Assembly: GCF_000013185.1 (NCBI RefSeq)
Contig: NC_007984.1
Span: 257,685 to 287,584, forward strand
From: Baumannia cicadellinicola str. Hc (Homalodisca coagulata)
GTDB taxonomy: Bacteria; Pseudomonadota; Gammaproteobacteria; Enterobacterales; Enterobacteriaceae
Length of the DNA stretch: 29,900 bases
Direction of reading: 5' to 3'
Shown here: in pieces, positions 2,279 through 14,334 of the stretch
Layout: each line of letters begins with the position of its first letter
Numbering within the stretch: the first letter of the stretch is position 1
The notes under the pieces: generated by a model
Databases searched by the model: none
What the model saw: only the letters and a program-made list of their open reading frames with translations
What the model was told of the DNA's origin: nothing
Translations under genes and position numbers: made by a program

Positions 2279-3580
2279 CTAGTATTTATCTGGTGTAACA
2301 AAAAATTTTTCACAGTTTAAAGCACTAGATATAGCGCATAGTAATCGTTGCATAGCTTCGCTATCGATGATATATGGCGGCATAAGATATATATATCTAC
2401 TAAATGGTCTAATCCAAACTCCTTGATTAACAAACCAGCTCTGTAGCGCAGATATTGCTATTGGTAATTTAGTCTCAACTACCCCAATAGCACCTAATAT
2501 CCGTACATCTCGGACATGTTTATTATTTACTAAAGGTAGTAAACCTGTACGTAGTTGTGTAGCTATAGTATCAACACGTGTTCGCCAGCTTTCATCTTCT
2601 AGTAATGAAATACTTGCGTTTGCTGCAGCACATGCAAGCGGATTACCCATGAAAGTTGGACCATGCATAAAGCAGCCAGCATCACCTTTACTAATAGTTT
2701 CTGCTACATTTCTGCATGTTAATGTAGCAGACAGTGTCATCGTACCGCCTGTTAGTGCTTTACCTAAACAGATAATATCTGGTGATATACCTGCGTGATT
2801 ACAGGCAAACCATTCACCAGTTCTTCCGAAACCAGTAGCTATTTCATCGGCAATTAGTAGTAACTCATATTGATCACACAACTTACGTGCTATCTTTAAA
2901 TAGTTTGGGTGGTAGAAGTACATACCACCTGCGCCTTGTACAATAGGTTCTAGAATTACAGCAGTTAGATATGCATGATTAGCTGCAATAATTCTACTTA
3001 ATTCTAATTCATCGCCATCGCGCCAAATTTCTCCAAAACGTCGTTGCAGAGAATTAACGAATAGGTGTTTGGGCAGATAGTCTTGATATAGTTGATGCAT
3101 AGAATTATCTGGATCTGATACCGACATTGCGCCAAAGGTATCACCGTGATAACCTTGACGTAATGCTAGAAACTTATGACGTGGTTTTCCGCGAGCTTGC
3201 CAGTACTGTAAAGCCATTTTCATGGCTACTTCTACTGCTACTGATCCAGAATCAGATAAAAACACACAATCTAAACCAGAAGGTGTTAAAGCTACAAGGC
3301 GTTGACATAATTCTATGGCTGGATAGTGTGTGATACCCCCAAACATCACATGTGACATACGACTTATCTGGTCATTCATAGCCTGGTTAATAACCGGATG
3401 ATTATAACCATGAATAGCCGCCCACCAAGATGACATTCCGTCTACTAATCGACGACCATTACTTAGGATTAGTTCATAACCTAAGGCTGAGATAACTGGA
3501 TAACTAGGTAACGGATTAGTCATAGAAGTGTAGGGATGCCAGATATGATAACGATCAAACATCAGATAATCTATATGCAT
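2279..3580 (-). CDS. bioA: Adenosylmethionine-8-amino-7-oxononanoate aminotransferase
   Basis: PLP enzyme of biotin synthesis that transaminates KAPA to DAPA with S-adenosylmethionine as the amino donor. It has 433 residues against 429 in E. coli with the same N-terminal spacing, so the catalytic lysine is K274 in CLGKALTGG and the PLP-ring aspartate is D245 in ADEIATGFGR. Substrate-site residues Y17, W52 and Y144 are also present. It is transcribed divergently from bioBFCD across a 107-base gap, as in enteric bacteria. No truncation or frameshift is seen. Confidence 0.97.
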   Translation of the reverse strand: MHIDYLMFDRYHIWHPYTSMTNPLPSYPVISALGYELILSNGRRLVDGMSSWWAAIHGYNHPVINQAMNDQISRMSHVMFGGITHYPAIELCQRLVALTPSGLDCVFLSDSGSVAVEVAMKMALQYWQARGKPRHKFLALRQGYHGDTFGAMSVSDPDNSMHQLYQDYLPKHLFVNSLQRRFGEIWRDGDELELSRIIAANHAYLTAVILEPIVQGAGGMYFYHPNYLKIARKLCDQYELLLIADEIATGFGRTGEWFACNHAGISPDIICLGKALTGGTMTLSATLTCRNVAETISKGDAGCFMHGPTFMGNPLACAAANASISLLEDESWRTRVDTIATQLRTGLLPLVNNKHVRDVRILGAIGVVETKLPIAISALQSWFVNQGVWIRPFSRYIYLMPPYIIDSEAMQRLLCAISSALNCEKFFVTPDKY

Positions 3581-3616
3581 AATTGAATCCTATCAATTAT
3601 AATAAATAATATTGTA

Positions 3617-3644
3617 TTGACAGTATAAAGATAAATTATAAAAT
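3617..3644 (+). promoter_or_regulatory. Candidate promoter for bioBFCD
   Basis: A perfect -35 box TTGACA (3617-3622) is followed after 16 bases by TAAAAT (3639-3644, 5 of 6 to the -10 consensus). It sits in the 107-base bioA-bioB divergent gap. The ribosome-binding site AGGAG lies at 3673-3677, 10 bases before the bioB ATG. The palindromic BirA operator that overlaps the divergent promoters in E. coli (half-sites like TTGTAAACC and GGTTTACAA) is not recognisable anywhere in the gap. No transcript data support the promoter. Confidence 0.45.
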
Positions 3645-3687
3645 AATACTACTATTATATAATAGAAGATATAGGAGCATATAAATT

Positions 3688-4716
3688 ATGCAAGTTACTC
3701 AACGTTGGAATAGAGAACAAGCAATATCACTATTTAATAAGCCTTTTTTTGATTTACTATTTCAAGCTCAACAAGTTCATAGAAAATATTTTAGACTAGG
3801 ACAAGTGCAAATTAGTACACTATTATCAATTAAAACTGGTAACTGTGCAGAAGATTGTAAATACTGTCCACAGAGCTCCCATTATGAAACTAAATTAGAT
3901 AATGAGCCTCTAGTACAGTTACCACAAGTTTTAGCAGCTGCAAAAAAAGCAAGTGATGCAGGTTCAACACGTTTCTGTATAGGCGCAGCTTGGAAAAAAA
4001 TACATGATCGTGATATGCCACTACTTGAGCAAATAGTCACAGGAGTAAAAGCGATAGGCTTAGAAACATGTATGACCTTAGGTATATTGAAACCTCAACA
4101 AGCACAACGCTTAGCAAAAGCAGGCTTAGATTTTTATAATCATAATCTAGATACATCACCAGAATTTTATCATTCTATTGTTACTACGCGTAGTTATCAA
4201 GATAGGCTTAATACAATTGAAAATGTTCGTAAAGCAGGGATAAAAATCTGCTCTGGTGGTATTATAGGATTAGGCGAGACTATTAGTGATCGCGCAGGAC
4301 TTTTAGTTGAACTCGCTAATTTACCAGAACCTCCATCTAGTGTGCCAATTAATATGCTGGTTAAAGTACGCGGTACGCCAATGTTTGATAATAAGGATGT
4401 AGATCCATTTGATTTGATCCGTATGATTGCGGTTACTCGTATTATGATGCCTACCTCTTATGTTCGATTATCGGCTGGTCGTGAACAGATGAACGAACAA
4501 ACACAAGCTATATGCTTTATGGCAGGTGCTAACTCTATTTTTTACGGCCGCAAACTACTTACCTCTTCTAATCCCACCGAAGATAGTGATAAAAGACTAT
4601 TCCGTAAGTTGGGAATGCAGATAGAAAAACATACTACAATAAAAAATTCTAATTGGAAGAAAAAGAAATTATTACTTCATGATAACCAACAGCATGATAA
4701 TACTATTAGCTCATGA
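3688..4716 (+). CDS. bioB: Biotin synthase (radical SAM)
   Basis: Inserts sulfur into dethiobiotin to give biotin, the last step of the pathway. The radical-SAM [4Fe-4S] motif is C53-x3-C57-x2-C60 in CAEDCKYC. The ligands of the sacrificial [2Fe-2S] cluster, C97, C128, C188 and R260, fall at the same numbers as in E. coli BioB, so both clusters should form. Length is 342 residues (E. coli 346). The last 25 or so residues are lysine- and histidine-rich and poorly conserved. The stop overlaps the bioF start in an ATGA junction, showing translational coupling in a bioBFCD operon. Confidence 0.98.
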
Positions 4717-5891
4717 CTAGTTTATGGATACAGCGTTGCGAAAAAGCGCTAGCTATACAGAAACAGAAAAAAGCTTATCGATATCGTAAGCTAATCAGCG
4801 GTGGTAATGACCGTATATTAACATACCAGGGGAAACGTTATTTAAACTTCTCAAGTAATGACTACCTTGGACTTGCGCGGCATCCAGAAGTAATTGCCGC
4901 TTATCAGCAGGTAGCAATAGATGAAGGAATTAGTTCTGGTGGTTCTGGTCACGTTATAGGTTATAGTCCAAGACATCAACGACTAGAAAATCAGTTAGCC
5001 AACTGGCTTAGTTTTCCACGAGCACTATTATTTTGTTCTGGTTATATTGCTAATCAGGCTGTTATTAGCGCATTAACAACTGTCGGAGATTATATTTTCG
5101 CAGATCGTTTAAGCCATTCATCTTTACTAAATGCCGCTATTCAATCTTCGGCAGAACTAATTAGGTTTCGACATAACGATATCAGCTCATTACAACATTT
5201 ATTGCAACGATTTTGTCAGAGTAACTGTTTAGTAATCACTGAAGGTGTTTTCAGCATGGATGGAGACCAAGCACCATTATCTACTATGATACCATATATA
5301 CGTGCTGTAGATAGCAGCTGGTTAATGGTAGATGATGCTCATGGTTTCGGCATTTTAGGCTTAGATGGATGTGGATGTTGTTGGGATTTAAATCAGGACT
5401 TTCGTCCTGAGATATTAATAGTGAATTTTAGCAAAGCGGTAGGAGTTAGTGGTGCTGCTGTATTGTGCCAGGAACAAGTAGCTGAATATCTAATACAGTT
5501 TTCTTCACATCTAATTTATAGTACGGCATTACCTCCAGCAATAGTAGCCGCAACAGAAGTTGCTCTCACTCTTATACGTACAATAACAGGAAAAGCTTTA
5601 CGTCAGCAACTTCAAGATAATATTAATCATTTTCGCTATGGTATACAAGCATTAGGATTAGGATATAGGCTATTACCATCGATAACAGCTATTCAGCCAT
5701 TATTAATTGGCGATAATTTAAGTACATTAAATTTAGTAAGTCAGCTACGAGAACAAGGCTTATGGTTAACAGCTATTCGTCCTCCGACTGTACCACCTAA
5801 TAGTGCACGGATACGTATTACCCTTACAGCAGCTCATAATTACAATGATATTGAACAACTATTAGAAGCATTAGCTAATGTCAATAAATAA
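4713..5891 (+). CDS. bioF: 8-amino-7-oxononanoate synthase (KAPA synthase)
   Basis: PLP enzyme of the alpha-oxoamine synthase family that condenses pimeloyl-ACP (or -CoA) with alanine to KAPA. The catalytic lysine is K241 in [13 protein letters not shown]; in E. coli the same stretch reads FGKGFGVSGAAV. VDDAHG (residues 206-211, D207 and H210), H136 and the glycine-rich SSGGSGH segment near 74-80 are intact. It has 392 residues against 384 in E. coli. The start overlaps the bioB stop by 4 bases and the end overlaps bioC by 14, so the operon is tightly packed. Confidence 0.97.
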
Positions 5892-6639
5892 CCATAAACA
5901 AGGTATCGCTCGTAGTTTTAGTCGTGCAGCACAGCATTATGATAGATACGCAGCTTTTCAACGTTATTGCGGTGAACGTTTGCGTTCTTTAATCGGTCCG
6001 AGAAGAAGTAGTCAGTTATTGCTAGATGCTGGTTGCGGTACTGGTTGGTTTAGCCGTTGCTGGCAACGCGAAGGTAATTATGTTATTGCTTTAGATATTT
6101 CTGCTGCTATGTTAGTTATTGCTCAGCAACAGCATTCAGCAGCTGCTTATATTATCGGTGATATTGAACAGTTACCAATAGCAACATCTACAGTAGAATG
6201 TGTTTTTAGTAACCTAGCTATACAATGGTGCGAAGATTTACCGCAGGTATTAAATCAATTTCATAGGGTACTACGTCCAGGTGGTATCTTAGCTGTATCG
6301 ACTCTAGCTTATGGTTCTCTACATGAGCTAGAACTTGCATGGAGGCAAGTAGATAATAATATACATATTAATCGTTTTTTACCACAAACGGATATTGCTG
6401 CTGCTTTCCAAGCTTATAACCATAAGATAGTCATAGAACAAAAAACCCTATATTATTCCAAATTAATAGATTTATTTAATGAAATTAAAGGTGTAGGTGC
6501 TAGTTATTTATATATTGGTCATGGATTGGGTTTAACTAGTAGGACGCGTTTCCGAGCATTAGAAGAAGCCTGGCCTAGACATGCTTTAGGGTTACCACTT
6601 AGCTATCAATTAGTTTATGGAGTATTATATCGTGACTAA
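5878..6639 (+). CDS. bioC: Malonyl-ACP O-methyltransferase
   Basis: SAM-dependent methyltransferase that methylates malonyl-ACP so that fatty-acid synthesis can elongate it to a pimeloyl moiety. The SAM-binding motif I is LDAGCGTGW at residues 49-57, followed by ALDIS (about 71-75) and GDIEQLP (about 94-100). SNLAIQWC and the RFLPQTDI segment also match E. coli BioC, as does the length (253 against 251). The gene starts inside the end of bioF and overlaps the start of bioD. The pathway also needs a pimeloyl-ACP methyl ester esterase (BioH or a substitute), which is not in this window. Confidence 0.95.
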   Translation: MSINNHKQGIARSFSRAAQHYDRYAAFQRYCGERLRSLIGPRRSSQLLLDAGCGTGWFSRCWQREGNYVIALDISAAMLVIAQQQHSAAAYIIGDIEQLPIATSTVECVFSNLAIQWCEDLPQVLNQFHRVLRPGGILAVSTLAYGSLHELELAWRQVDNNIHINRFLPQTDIAAAFQAYNHKIVIEQKTLYYSKLIDLFNEIKGVGASYLYIGHGLGLTSRTRFRALEEAWPRHALGLPLSYQLVYGVLYRD

Positions 6640-7309
6640 ACGTTATTTTATTACGGGAACAGATACCAATGTTGGTAAAACCTTAGCAGCCTGTGCGTTG
6701 CTACAAGCTGCTATTAGCATAGGTTATCATGCGGCTGGCTATAAACCAGTAGCTACTGGTTATCAGTTAACACTTGACGGACCAAGAAATAATGATGCTT
6801 TGGCACTATTATCAAATAGTAATGTTATTCTATCTTATTCACAGGTAAACCCATTGGTATTTAGTGAGCCCACATCACCACATATTGCTTGCCGTGCTGA
6901 AGGACGAAATATTGAGCTATCTGAACTATCAGCTGGACTTAAAGTAATAGAGCAAAAGTCCGATTGGATTGTCGTAGAAGGTGCAGGAGGATGGTTTACT
7001 CCGTTAGGAGAAGGAATACTATATAGTGATTGGGTTAACTATGAGAAACTACCTGTGATATTAGTTATTGGGATGAAGTTAGGTTGTATTAACCATGCCC
7101 TACTTACTGCATTAGCCATACGACAGTTTGGCCTACAGCTAGTTGGTTGGATTGCTAATCATATACAACCAACTACAACCTGGTCGCAACATTATTTAGC
7201 AGAGTTACGTAATCGATTAGACGCACCATTAATAGGTGATATTCCGTGGCTAAGTAATATTCCTGTAGCATTGCTCGCTAAATATATTAATTTAGCAGAA
7301 CTAAGTTAG
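6632..7309 (+). CDS. bioD: Dethiobiotin synthetase
   Basis: ATP-dependent carboxylation of DAPA to dethiobiotin. The GTG at 6632 is preferred over the ATG at 6617: a GGAG sits at 6619-6622, nine bases before the GTG, and this start gives 225 residues, exactly the E. coli length, with the family N-terminus TKRYFITGTDTNVGKT. The ATG would put the Shine-Dalgarno inside the gene. The P-loop GTDTNVGKT lies near the N-terminus, with conserved VEGAGGWFTPL and KLGCINHA further on. The gene overlaps bioC by 8 bases and ends the operon, followed by a hairpin. In E. coli uvrB comes next; it is absent here. Confidence 0.96.
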   Translation: MTKRYFITGTDTNVGKTLAACALLQAAISIGYHAAGYKPVATGYQLTLDGPRNNDALALLSNSNVILSYSQVNPLVFSEPTSPHIACRAEGRNIELSELSAGLKVIEQKSDWIVVEGAGGWFTPLGEGILYSDWVNYEKLPVILVIGMKLGCINHALLTALAIRQFGLQLVGWIANHIQPTTTWSQHYLAELRNRLDAPLIGDIPWLSNIPVALLAKYINLAELS

Positions 7310-9313: not shown

Positions 9314-10405
9314 ATGAATACCGTTTTTAATTTTAGCTCAGGACCAGCAAAATTACCAATTGAAGTACTACAACAAGCACAACAGGAACTCTGTAATTGG
9401 CATGGATTAGGAACTTCAATTATGGAAATCAGTCATCGTAGTGATGAATTTCGTCAGGTTGCGTACGAATCAGAGCAAGATTTGCGTAGTTTACTAAATA
9501 TACCTGATAATTATCAGGTATTATTTTGCCATGGGGGAGCACGCGCACAATTCGCTGCAGTACCAATGAACCTATTAGGTAAATCTAAGATAGCAGACTA
9601 TATTCATGGTGGTTATTGGTCATACAGCGCAGCTAAAGAAGCGCATAAATATTGCCAACCTAGAATGATCGAGGTTATGACTTATATTAATGGTTGGCGT
9701 GGTATTAAACCAATGGTAGAATGGGTTCTATCTCCTGATAACGTAGCCTATGTACACTATTGTCCAAATGAAACAATAGATGGGTTAACTATTGATGAAT
9801 TGCCTGATTTTGGCAATAAAATAGTAGTAGCTGATTTCTCCTCTGCTATTTTAGCACGTCCTATAGATGTTAGTAAATATGGTGTAATTTATGCTAGTGC
9901 GCAAAAAAATATAGGTCCAGCTGGTCTTGCGATAGTAATCATTCGGGATGATCTACTGATAAATAGGGCTAGTACCAAATTACCATCTATTCTTAATTAT
10001 CAGTTATTAGCGAATAATAAATCGATGTTTAATACTCCACCTACCTTTGCTTGGTATGTCTCAGGTTTAGTCTTTAAATGGTTGAAAGTCCAAGGAGGGC
10101 TAGTTGAGATTGAAAAAAATAATCGGGCTAAAGCTATTCTCTTATATAACACTATAGATAATAGTGAATTCTACTATAATAATATACTTCCAGTAAATCG
10201 TTCTTACATGAATGTACCGTTCTATTTAGCAAATAGTGCACTAGATGACTTATTTATAATCGAAGCTAGAAATGCCGGATTATATGCCCTAAAAGGACAC
10301 CGTGTAGCAGGTGGTATGCGAGCGGCGTTATATAACGCGATGCCACTAGAAGGAGTCAAAACACTAGTTCAATTTATGCATAACTTTGCTTGTCGTTATG
10401 GCTAA
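9314..10405 (+). CDS. serC: Phosphoserine / 4-phosphohydroxythreonine aminotransferase
   Basis: PLP transaminase used in serine synthesis and in the deoxyxylulose-5-phosphate-dependent route to pyridoxal phosphate. The PLP lysine is K198 in [11 protein letters not shown], and W102 stacks on the ring. It has 363 residues (E. coli 362). The PLP-phosphate loop reads HGGARAQF where E. coli has HGGGRGQF, two Gly-to-Ala changes beside the binding Arg77; all other core segments ([30 protein letters not shown]) are intact. If serA and serB are absent, pyridoxal phosphate synthesis would be the reason for keeping it, but this window cannot show that. serC-aroA is the E. coli order; gpmA in front is not. 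Confidence 0.96.
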
Positions 10406-10499: not shown

Positions 10500-11786
10500 A
10501 TGCAGGAATTGCTAACATTACAACCTATTGTCCGTGTAAACGGCACGATTCATTTACCAGGCTCAAAAAGTATCTCGAACCGTGCATTATTGCTAGCTGC
10601 CCAAGCTTTAGGTAAAACTTGTTTGATAAATCTGCTTGATAGCTATGACGTACGCTACATGCTAGATGCTTTGCATAAACTGGGGATTAACTATTGCTTA
10701 TCTATAGATCGACGGAGCTGTGAGATAGATGGTATAGGTCGTCCTTTACGTGTAGATACAGCACTAGAATTATATTTAGGTAACTCTGGTATAGCACTAC
10801 GTTCACTTGTTGCTGCGCTGTGTTTACAAAACAAAAATATTATTATTACCGGCGATAAACGAATGAAAAACCGACCTATTGGTCATTTAGTTGACGCATT
10901 ACGTCAAGGTAGTGCACAAATCCATTATTTAGAAAAAGATAATTATCCACCATTACTTTTACAAGGTGGTTTTTATAATGGTGATATTACAATAGATTGT
11001 AGTTTGTCTAGTCAGTTTCTTACATCATTACTCATGATGGCTCCACTAGCCTCGCAAGATAGATGTATTTTTGTTAAGGGAAGATTAGTATCGAAACCAT
11101 ATATTGACATGACTTTAGCAATGATGAAAAGTTTTGGTATTGTGGTACAGCACGATCAATATAAAATATTTTATATTAAGGGTAAGAGCCAATACCGTTC
11201 TCCGGGTCACTATTTAGTAGAAGGCGATGCAACGAATGCCTCATATTTTCTAGCAGCAGCAGCAATTCGAGGAGGTACAGTGCGAGTTACTGGAGTTGGT
11301 AGCAATAGTATACAAGGAGATATCCGTTTTGCTGATATATTAGCTAACATGGGTGCAATTATTCGTTGGGGAGTAAATTACATAGAATGTACTCGTAACT
11401 CACTCTGCTCTATTGATATTGACATGAATGCTCTACCAGATACAGCTATGACTATAGCTATCGTTGCATTATTTACATATAATGGAGTAACAACATTACG
11501 TAATATATATAATTGGCGCATTAAAGAAACAAACAGGTTAGTAGCTATGGCTACAGAGCTGCGTAAAGTTGGTGCTATAGTTGTTGAGGGAAAAGAATAC
11601 TTATCGATAAAACCTCCTAATATGTTTAAAATAGCCAAAATTAATACATACGATGATCATCGTATTGCTATGTGTTTTGCTTTAGTAGCATTATCTAATG
11701 TATCAATAACAATTGTTAATCCTAAATGTACTTATAAAACCTTCCCTGATTTTTTTAAATTACTTAAAGGTATTAGTATTACTTAA
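10500..11786 (+). CDS. aroA: 5-enolpyruvylshikimate-3-phosphate synthase, TIPS-like
   Basis: Sixth step of the shikimate pathway: PEP plus shikimate-3-phosphate to EPSP, leading to chorismate. 428 residues, one more than E. coli because of an extra N-terminal residue. Active-site segments are kept: [11 protein letters not shown] (Lys and Arg for both substrates), [34 protein letters not shown] and the C-terminal KTFPD. The PEP-site loop reads [11 protein letters not shown] where E. coli has LGNAGTAMRPL, so Ile98 (ATA at 10791) and Ser102 (TCA at 10803) replace E. coli T97 and P101. G97 (E. coli G96) is unchanged. No Shine-Dalgarno is visible before the ATG. Confidence 0.96.
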
Positions 11787-11847: not shown

Positions 11848-12525
11848 ATGACATTTATAATACCAGTCATAACTATCGATGGACCTAGTAATTCTGGAAA
11901 AGGAACATTATGTAAAGTATTAGCAGAAAGATTACAGTGGAATTTGCTAGATTCTGGTGCGATTTATCGAGTACTAGCACTAGCAGCGCTACAACATAAT
12001 TTAGTTATCAAGGACGAAGAAGCACTAGTACCATTGGCTGTACATCTAGATGTAAGCTTTATTATTGATCAAGGGCAATTAGTAGTATTTCTTGAAGGAA
12101 AAGATATGAGCAAAGCTATCCGAAATGAGAGAATAGCTCATCTTTCCTCAAAAATTGCAGTTTTACCACGAGTACGCGATGCATTACTCTATCGTCAACG
12201 TGCGTTCCGTACTACTCCAGGTTTAATTGCTGATGGACGTGATATGGGTACTGTTGTTTTTCCTGATGCCCTAGTGAAAATTTTTCTTGATGCCTCGCCG
12301 GAAGAAAGAGCGCGCCGGCGCCTACAACAGTTGCAGGAACAAGGTTTTAGTGTTAACTTTAAACATATTTTATCAAAAATAAAAGAAAGAGATGAACGTG
12401 ACAAAAATCGCATAACTGCTCCTCTAAAACCAGCTGTTAATGCGTTTTTGATTGACTCGACTCAGCTGACTATCGACGCGGTGATAACAAGTGTTATGGA
12501 ATATCTAAAATTAATTTTTAGATAG
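11848..12525 (+). CDS. cmk: Cytidylate kinase
   Basis: Phosphorylates CMP and dCMP to the diphosphates, recycling CMP from phospholipid and RNA turnover. The N-terminal P-loop is GPSNSGKGT at residues 12-20; E. coli has GPSGAGKGT. Also conserved are [16 protein letters not shown], the CMP-binding [15 protein letters not shown] block, and the [10 protein letters not shown] lid region. 225 residues against 227 in E. coli, with start aligned to MTAIAPVITIDG. aroA-cmk-rpsA matches the E. coli order with ycaL missing between aroA and cmk. It follows aroA by 61 bases. Confidence 0.97.
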
Positions 12526-12657: not shown

Positions 12658-14334
12658 ATGACAAAATCTTTTGCTCAACTCTTTGAAGAATCTCTGAAAA
12701 ACATCACAACCCGCCCTGGGTCTATTGTTCGTGGTACGATTGTATCGATAGCTAAAGATATAGTTCTCGTTGATGCTGGTCTAAAATCGGAATCCGCTAT
12801 TCCTATAGCGCAATTTTATAATGCCCAGGGAGAACTAGAAATAAAAGTCAATGATCAGGTTGACGTAGCGCTAGATGCCGTAGAAGATGGTTTCGGAGAA
12901 ACTATACTTTCTCGTGACAAAGCTAAGCGTCATGAAGCTTGGTTAATGCTAGAACAAGCTTATGAAGAAGCTGCGATCGTAACAGGAATTATTAACAGTA
13001 AAGTTAAGGGTGGTTTTACTGTTGAGCTCAATGGTATTAGAGCTTTCCTACCTGGTTCCTTAGTAGATATGCGTCCAGTTCGTGATACATTACATCTGGA
13101 AGGCAAAGAGCTAGAGTTTAAAGTAATTAAGTTAGATCAAAAACGTAATAATGTTGTAGTGTCACGTCGTGCTGTTATTGAGTCTGAAAATAGTTTTGAA
13201 CGAGATAATTTGTTAGAAAATATGCAGGAAGGTATGGAAGTTAAGGGTCTCGTGAAGAATCTGACTGACTACGGTGCATTTGTTGATTTAGGAGGGGTAG
13301 ACGGGCTACTACATATTACTGATATGGCCTGGAAACGAGTTAAACACCCTAGTGAAATCGTTACTATTGGTGATGAAATTATTGTTAAAATATTAAAATT
13401 TGATCGAGAACGTACCCGTGTATCTCTAGGTTTAAAGCAGCTTAGTCAAGATCCTTGGTATGCTATTGCTCAGCGTTACCCAGAAAATTCACGTCTTACT
13501 GGACGTGTTACGAATTTAACTGATTATGGATGCTTTGTAGAAATAGAAGAAGGTGTTGAAGGATTAGTACACGTGTCTGAAATGGATTGGACCAATAAAA
13601 ATGTTCATCCATCGAAAGTCGTTAATGTTAATGATATTGTTGAAATTATGGTACTTGATATCGATGAAGAACGCCGTCGTATTTCTCTCGGATTAAAACA
13701 GTGTCAAGCAAATCCTTGGCAAAAATTTGCTGAAACACATGAGAAAGGTGATCGTGTTGAAGGTAAGATTAAATCAATTACTGATTTTGGTATTTTTATC
13801 GGTCTAGAAGGAGGTATCGACGGCTTAGTTCATTTATCTGATATTTATTGGAATCTTTCAGGTGAAGAGGCCGCACGTGAGTATAAAAAAGGAGAAGAAA
13901 TTGCGGCAGTTGTTTTACAAGTTGATGCGGAGCGTGAGCGTATTTCCTTAGGTATTAAGCAATTAGATCAAGATCCGTTAAGTCACTACTTGTCTTTAAA
14001 TAAAAAGGGTGCTATTGTTAGCGGTAAAATAATTGCTGTTGATGATAAAGGAGCTCTAATTCAATTAGCAAGTGGTGTTGAAGGTTATCTACGTACGTTT
14101 GATACTGATTCTGTAGAGAGCAGAAGAGATAGTGCAATGTTGCTTAATATCGGCGATAATATCGAAGCTACATTGATTGGAGTGGATAGAAAAAATCGTT
14201 TTATTAATTTATCTATTCGTAATAAAGACGAAGTTGATGATAAAAAGGCGCTTAGTACTGTAACTACTAAGCAAGAAGCAAATAATTTATCTAATGTTAT
14301 GGTTGAAGCGTTTAAAGCAGCAACTAAAAGTTAG
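12658..14334 (+). CDS. rpsA: 30S ribosomal protein S1
   Basis: Brings mRNA to the 30S subunit, needed for messages with weak or structured start regions. Six S1/OB-fold repeats are present at about residues 21-87, 105-171, 192-260, 277-347, 364-434 and 451-520; the third and fourth are closest to E. coli, with [20 protein letters not shown] and [20 protein letters not shown]. The sixth repeat and the tail are the most diverged. Length is 558 against 557. Many genes in this window lack a clear Shine-Dalgarno (aroA, cmk, bioC), which makes an intact S1 plausible as essential. The E. coli downstream gene ihfB is missing. Confidence 0.99.

Follow-up and report, generated by a model that had tools for sequence, protein, structure and literature searches.

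The TIPS double substitution of EPSP synthase (T97I with P101S) is known from an engineered Escherichia coli enzyme, for which a glyphosate IC50 of 6.6 mM has been reported, with T97I lowering the affinity for PEP and P101S restoring it (PMC8983318), and for which a second source gives a Ki/Km of 24 and describes a shift of Gly96 towards the glyphosate site (PMC3371024). The corresponding pair in commercial maize and Eleusine indica is T102I/P106S (PMC3411725, PMC10179075), and the Eleusine form is reported with a resistance level of 11.4, a Km(PEP) raised 4.1-fold and 0.26 of the maximum rate (PMC10179075). Working at high glyphosate is described as the natural hallmark of the class II enzymes of the CP4 type (PMC3411725), in which Ala stands in place of Gly96 (PMC3371024). 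The EPSP synthases of insect symbionts, for their part, have been predicted to be glyphosate-sensitive since they cluster with class I (PMC8113238, the main text of which does not name Baumannia). Our literature search, which covered titles and the openings of abstracts with subscription papers mostly outside it, returned no natural TIPS enzyme from any bacterium.

In the stretch of the Baumannia cicadellinicola str. Hc genome analysed here (29,900 nucleotides, hereafter the window) aroA (10500..11786, + strand) is one uninterrupted reading frame for a class-I-type EPSP synthase of 428 residues, which passes the NCBIfam aroA cut-off (TIGR01356, 407.4 versus 287.25 bits, residues 15-425) and matches the E. 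coli EPSPS structures. It is the only aroA match over the cut-off in this genome, a single contig of 686,194 bases, where the second match scored 86.6 bits, below the cut-off. A phmmer search of PDB sequences aligned the PEP-site loop (10776..10808, + strand) to E. coli EPSPS without gaps, and a loop pattern matched at 10777-10807 (TAGGTAACTCTGGTATAGCACTACGTTCACT), with 0 matches in 100 shuffles. The top match among 41 distinct PDB sequences was the E. coli TIPS mutant itself (3FK0/3FK1, 613.8 bits), whose Ile and Ser align with those of the window AroA, and lower ranks went to 3FJX/3FJZ (Ile97 and Pro101, 611.6 bits) and 1G6S (609.3 bits). Given this gap-free alignment and a best match to the TIPS mutant, Ile98 (ATA, 10791..10793, + strand) and Ser102 (TCA, 10803..10805, + strand) occupy the positions of T97 and P101; a preliminary description of this DNA had placed them there, and the loop shift that would have undone this placement is not seen. 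The same description had equated the pair with that of tolerant maize and resistant Eleusine, which by position is correct, although the plant enzymes were engineered or selected by glyphosate while the distribution of the residues reported below points to symbiont drift.

With Ile at T97, Ser at P101 and G96 kept in a gap-free loop, the protein is by its residues a TIPS-type class I enzyme, and score and residues alike make it an EPSP synthase of the TIGR01356 family. It would share with class II at most the capacity to work at high glyphosate; it is closest to enterobacterial enzymes, and the position at which CP4 has Ala is Gly97 here. Twenty ligand or catalytic positions are identical to those of E. 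coli (K22, S23, R27, N94, G96, R100, R124, S169-Q171, S197, Y200, D313, N336, K340, E341, R344, H385, R386 and K411), and at the 21st active-site position examined, D343, the window AroA has Asn (Asn345, 11532..11534, + strand, within KETNR). The D343N site adjoins the catalytic Glu and a PEP-binding Arg. The companion Gly and the catalytic segments had been described beforehand as intact, which agrees with 20 of the 21 positions; D343N and a further loop change, A95S (Ser96, TCT, 10785..10787, + strand), were absent from that account. Compared with the engineered E. coli enzyme, then, the window AroA has the same residues at 97 and 101, keeps G96 and R100 and aligns over the full length, but it is natural and carries A95S, M99L and D343N in addition.

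Our preferred reading, to which we assign a probability of roughly 0.6, is that this is a working, single-copy AroA kept mainly for folate, in which the TIPS pair arose by a two-step path of C-to-T mutation and drift, with tolerance as a by-product. Ordinary symbiont evolution is the best explanation for finding the known double change in nature, and herbicide selection would have played no part in either step. Together, Ile97 and Ser101 should move Gly96 towards the glyphosate site, so that the enzyme is expected, and probably is, tolerant. Such tolerance would conflict with the class-level prediction of sensitivity (PMC8113238): the window AroA departs from the sensitive type at both 97 and 101, and at 101 the same holds for 20 of 53 relatives with reduced genomes, so that, if the tolerance is true, risk predictions for beneficial and pest insects need checks at the level of residues. 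It is also conceivable, though we consider it unlikely, that the TIPS residues are present in an enzyme that is not strongly tolerant because it departs from enterobacterial AroA at about a third of its remaining positions, which alter the pocket or the balance between PEP and glyphosate. The window AroA is 62-65% identical to 30 large-genome relatives (277/424 residues, 65%, to one such relative), A95S and D343N add to the differences, and the same pair has different effects in different enzymes (the E. coli IC50 of 6.6 mM versus the resistance level of 11.4 in Eleusine; PMC8983318, PMC10179075). This account has to contend with the 20 of 21 active-site positions that are kept and with a best solved match that is the TIPS mutant itself. 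As to PEP affinity, on which the preliminary description had suggested relaxed selection, a lower value is not assured: the raised Km(PEP) and the reduced rate in Eleusine speak for a cost of the pair (PMC10179075), but in the E. coli enzyme P101S makes good the loss caused by T97I (PMC8983318).

To set the pace of aroA against its surroundings we used as rate controls the upstream neighbour serC (9314..10405, + strand) and the downstream neighbour cmk (11848..12525, + strand), both recognized as open reading frames with profile matches. Pairwise dN/dS (NG86, dS up to 1.5) between the window genome and two genus mates was 0.09 and 0.105 for aroA, values that are rough since its dS is 1.2-1.4, and was 0.10 and 0.12 for serC and 0.23 and 0.15 for cmk. 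The window AroA is under purifying selection, and the open frame, the 20 of 21 kept positions and a dN/dS of about 0.1 suggest that the enzyme is probably active, as had been supposed. The end branch of the window's lineage is long in all three genes (aroA 0.23, serC 0.24, cmk 0.30), and identity to outgroups is lower in the window genome than in the mates by 5.2-8.4 points for aroA, 1.9-4.8 for serC and 1.8-7.7 for cmk. At columns where six outgroups agree, changes in the window lineage alone versus a mate alone numbered 17:2 and 18:3 in aroA (p 0.0007 and 0.0015), with no such imbalance in serC (16:9 and 14:12) or cmk (6:4 and 6:3); in direct comparison of the imbalances, Fisher p was 0.081 and 0.028 for aroA against serC and 0.14 and 0.33 for aroA against cmk. 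Changes per column in the window lineage were nonetheless alike across the genes (aroA 0.065-0.069, serC 0.062-0.071, cmk 0.056), and the aroA imbalance stems from slow aroA in the mates (L004 and L005, compared with the window's L003). Of the 169 sites that never vary in large genomes, 15 are changed in the window AroA, as against 8 and 9 in the two mates. The evidence on relaxed selection, which the preliminary description had invoked, is mixed: the excess of lineage-own aroA changes over the mates supports it, while the dN/dS values and a per-column pace equal to that of serC and cmk do not. Possibly the window's lineage has lost an extra constraint that aroA enjoys in the mates. The opposite position, that there is no aroA-specific relaxation whatever, we rejected as too strong, as the lineage outpaces its mates in aroA and not in serC or cmk.

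Profile searches of the window's genome covered DAHP synthase, chorismate synthase (aroC), chorismate-binding enzymes, chorismate lyase, prephenate dehydratase and TrpE; they found the first two, together with one chorismate-binding enzyme that scores as PabB (TIGR00553, 388.1 versus a cut-off of 328.4; NF012009, 608.3, just under the cut-off of 622). No chorismate lyase, prephenate dehydratase or TrpE scored over its cut-off in these searches. Since PabB is the only chorismate-using enzyme found, AroA probably serves folate, and folate is probably what the shikimate pathway feeds here. In published accounts the synthesis of Phe and Trp is assigned to the partner Sulcia (PMC2936742, PMC5592932) and tetrahydrofolate is listed as a target metabolite of the Baumannia network (PMC2936742), although a differing view places Baumannia aroH among partially retained genes for aromatic amino acids (PMC5592932); in tsetse, glyphosate given at 100 uM with the blood meal reportedly blocks the chorismate-to-folate route of Wigglesworthia (PMC6550517). 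One genus mate of about 600 kb (G001) gave no match to the AroA protein, its family match being weak and scoring about as high as the second match that fell below the cut-off in the window's genome, and it likewise had no match to aroC, DAHP synthase or PF00425, which fits the loss of vitamin pathways reported for a 633-kb Baumannia strain of the green sharpshooter (PMC4758232). Nor did the fragmented assembly of another mate, G003, yield a DAHP synthase.

These observations bear on a further alternative, which we judge distinctly unlikely, namely that AroA is decaying or mildly impaired and is kept only since the demand for folate is small. PabB as the one chorismate user found and the missing pathway genes in G001 are in keeping with decay, as are the 15 changes at the 169 invariant sites (8 and 9 in the mates) and the 17 and 18 lineage-own changes (2 and 3 in the mates); the open frame, the 20 of 21 residues kept, the dN/dS of about 0.1 and the per-column changes equal to those of serC and cmk in the same lineage argue for the working enzyme of our preferred reading.

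Among four genomes sampled from the genus, aroA was present in three (the window's, G002 and G003). The loop of G002 reads LGNAGTALRIL and that of G003 LGNAGTALRLL, i.e., P101I and P101L with T97 kept, and T97I is thus private to the window's lineage within the genus. The family sample comprised 198 genomes, 192 with a match and 179 over the cut-off, and loops were read in 167: 110 genomes of at least 3.1 Mb (the 30 best-scoring and 80 more from the match list), 55 others (53 of at most 2.2 Mb and two larger), the window's own and G002. Twelve over-cut-off genomes lie outside this reading, and the G003 loop came from the genus search and is outside the 167. T97 and P101 were both kept in all 110 large-genome relatives. 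In the set of 55, P101 was kept in 35 rows and changed in 20 (10 S, 7 F and 3 L), a difference with a Fisher p of about 2e-11 when kinship is ignored (20/55 versus 0/110); counted over the 53 reduced genomes, P101 is replaced in 20, against none of the 110 large ones. The AroA loci without P101 are L102, L103, L107, L111, L115, L116, L123-L130, L134, L142, L143, L145, L146 and L151. Position 97 was far more stable (T 51, I 2, A 2), and both other I97 rows, in G134 and G125, have L101 (loops GITSRLL and GISMRLL, at L125 and L128), a TIPS-like pair. The reduced-genome symbionts thus resemble the window AroA in having lost P101, and differ from it in keeping T97 in 51 of 55 rows and in pairing I97 with L101 rather than S101. 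With Baumannia included (56 reduced-genome rows), T97 is changed in 5 and P101 in 23, which places P101 eighth, tied with the seventh, among the 169 large-genome-invariant sites ranked by rows changed. Of the two further replacements, Ser at A95 occurs in 12 of the 56 rows and A95 is invariant in the 110 large-genome rows, and D343N, within the KETDR motif, occurs in 11 of the 56, including each of the three genomes of the genus that have aroA (L004 and L005 among them). A phylum sample of 150 genomes gave matches in 148, and of the 109 rows that were read two also belong to the family set. T97 was present in 109/109 of these rows, while position 101 held Leu in 93, Pro in 14 and Phe in 2, indicating that evolution can replace residue 101 whereas T97 hardly ever changes. 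Two loci of one genus (L126 and L127) have an unusual PEP-site loop, GQSGALMRF, with N94Q and T97A alongside P101F, and the aroA match at L145 (G118) contains one internal TGA, so that either the gene is broken or the sequence is in error.

An AroA tree was built from 83 rows, 25 of them a random draw from the 110 large-genome rows, after masking of both trait columns. It requires no fewer than 15 switches between P and non-P, a count that does not give their direction, and 3 changes at T97. Baumannia belonged to a starred clade of 11 rows; three of the other rows there have Ser and one has Leu at residue 101, and the branching order of the three aroA-bearing Baumannia genomes is not firm. The preliminary description had suggested dating the two changes from an alignment of symbionts and relatives: such an alignment finds P101 gone in both aroA-bearing mates and T97I private to the lineage within the genus. 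Drift in a symbiont, which it had offered as a possible origin, stands as a likely one, with the refinement that the changes at P101 and T97 have separate histories.

Each substitution takes one C-to-T mutation, P101S from CCN to TCN and T97I from ACN to ATN. Non-P codons at 101 were TCN, TTT/TTC, CTA/CTG/TTG/TTA and one ATA (G002), the codons for Ile in the three I97 rows were ATT, ATT and ATA, and the S, F and L codons at 101 in other symbionts lie on the same C-to-T path as that of the window AroA. AT content as the sole driver of P101 loss was unsupported, since GC3 was no lower in rows without P101 (0.219) than in rows with it (0.184); C-to-T mutation is the path and not a sufficient cause. 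One might instead suppose that a PEP-like inhibitor other than the herbicide, or unusual PEP levels in the bacteriocyte, selected the loop changes here and in other symbionts. The repeated change of P101 (23/56 rows, eighth of 169 sites) would suit such selection, yet six other invariant sites change more often, the codons follow the C-to-T path, and we know of no PEP-like inhibitor of this kind; we regard this as very improbable.

Under the preferred two-step reading, the replacement-tolerant residue 101 would have lost Pro through drift and a C-to-T mutation (CCN to TCN), a loss that recurs among symbionts with reduced genomes, and on this permissive background Thr97 would then have become Ile (ACN to ATN, again C-to-T). 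P101 is gone in 5/5 rows with a changed T97 versus 18/51 rows with T97 (56 rows, with only three changes on the tree), which is suggestive of a T97 change tied to prior loss of P101. That T97 is changed only where 101 is changed matches the E. coli enzyme, in which the PEP affinity lost with T97I comes back in the double mutant (PMC8983318). We therefore favour, with the three genomes of the genus too few for proof, the order P101 first and T97I second, and the pattern offers a natural test of such an order-dependent path without herbicide. A link between P101 loss and the loss of aromatic amino-acid synthesis is not claimed, as its signal appears only without correction for kinship. With kinship ignored, P101 was lost in 14/22 rows with PDT and TrpE both below cut-off versus 9/34 others (Fisher p 0.011), in 11/19 versus 9/34 with the three Baumannia left out (p 0.038), and in 9/13 versus 6/27 below 1 Mb, Baumannia again left out (p 0.006); independent pairs (7 and 10 pairs for loss of Phe/Trp synthesis) gave a median p of 0.375 both ways, with too few differing pairs to reach 0.05.

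A scan of 84,980 species genomes with the loop pattern gave 64 loci, none of them an AroA with the TIPS loop. L037, the one locus among these in which tblastn found an AroA, was rejected as a distant TIPS enzyme since the pattern lies elsewhere there, and none of the 64 matched frames was a distant AroA by an HMM built from 277 AroA rows at E up to 10. Apart from positions 97 and 101 the pattern fits 109/110 large-genome, 34/55 reduced-genome and 32/109 phylum rows, the last of which implies that the scan misses many non-enterobacterial forms of the loop, and records near the window's genome are possibly absent from it. Among the 56 reduced-genome rows there were 11 with S101 and 3 with I97, from which independence predicts 0.59 double rows where 1 was seen; the pair is rare, yet no rarer than changes at the two sites would lead one to expect. 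That agricultural glyphosate recently selected the pair is extremely unlikely: although the host is a xylem-feeding crop pest (PMC5592932, PMC8496328) and other symbionts are reported to be affected by glyphosate in vivo (PMC6550517, PMC8113238), P101 is already gone in both aroA-bearing genus mates, two distant symbionts carry I97 with L101, and about 0.6 double rows in 56 are expected by independence.

More broadly, Baumannia would hold a natural, working TIPS enzyme never selected by herbicide, a sizeable share of the symbionts deemed sensitive for having a class I enzyme would be somewhat tolerant through C-to-T drift at P101, and T97I following P101 loss would be a repeatable two-step path, a proposal that we advance tentatively and at somewhat less than even odds. 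The repeated loss of P101 across reduced genomes is a more useful result than the pair itself. Elsewhere in the window, serC, aroA and cmk share the + strand with rpsA (12658-14334), which lies downstream of cmk, and five biotin genes lie at 2279-7309 (bioA on the - strand; bioB, bioF, bioC and bioD on the + strand), bioF scoring just under its cut-off.
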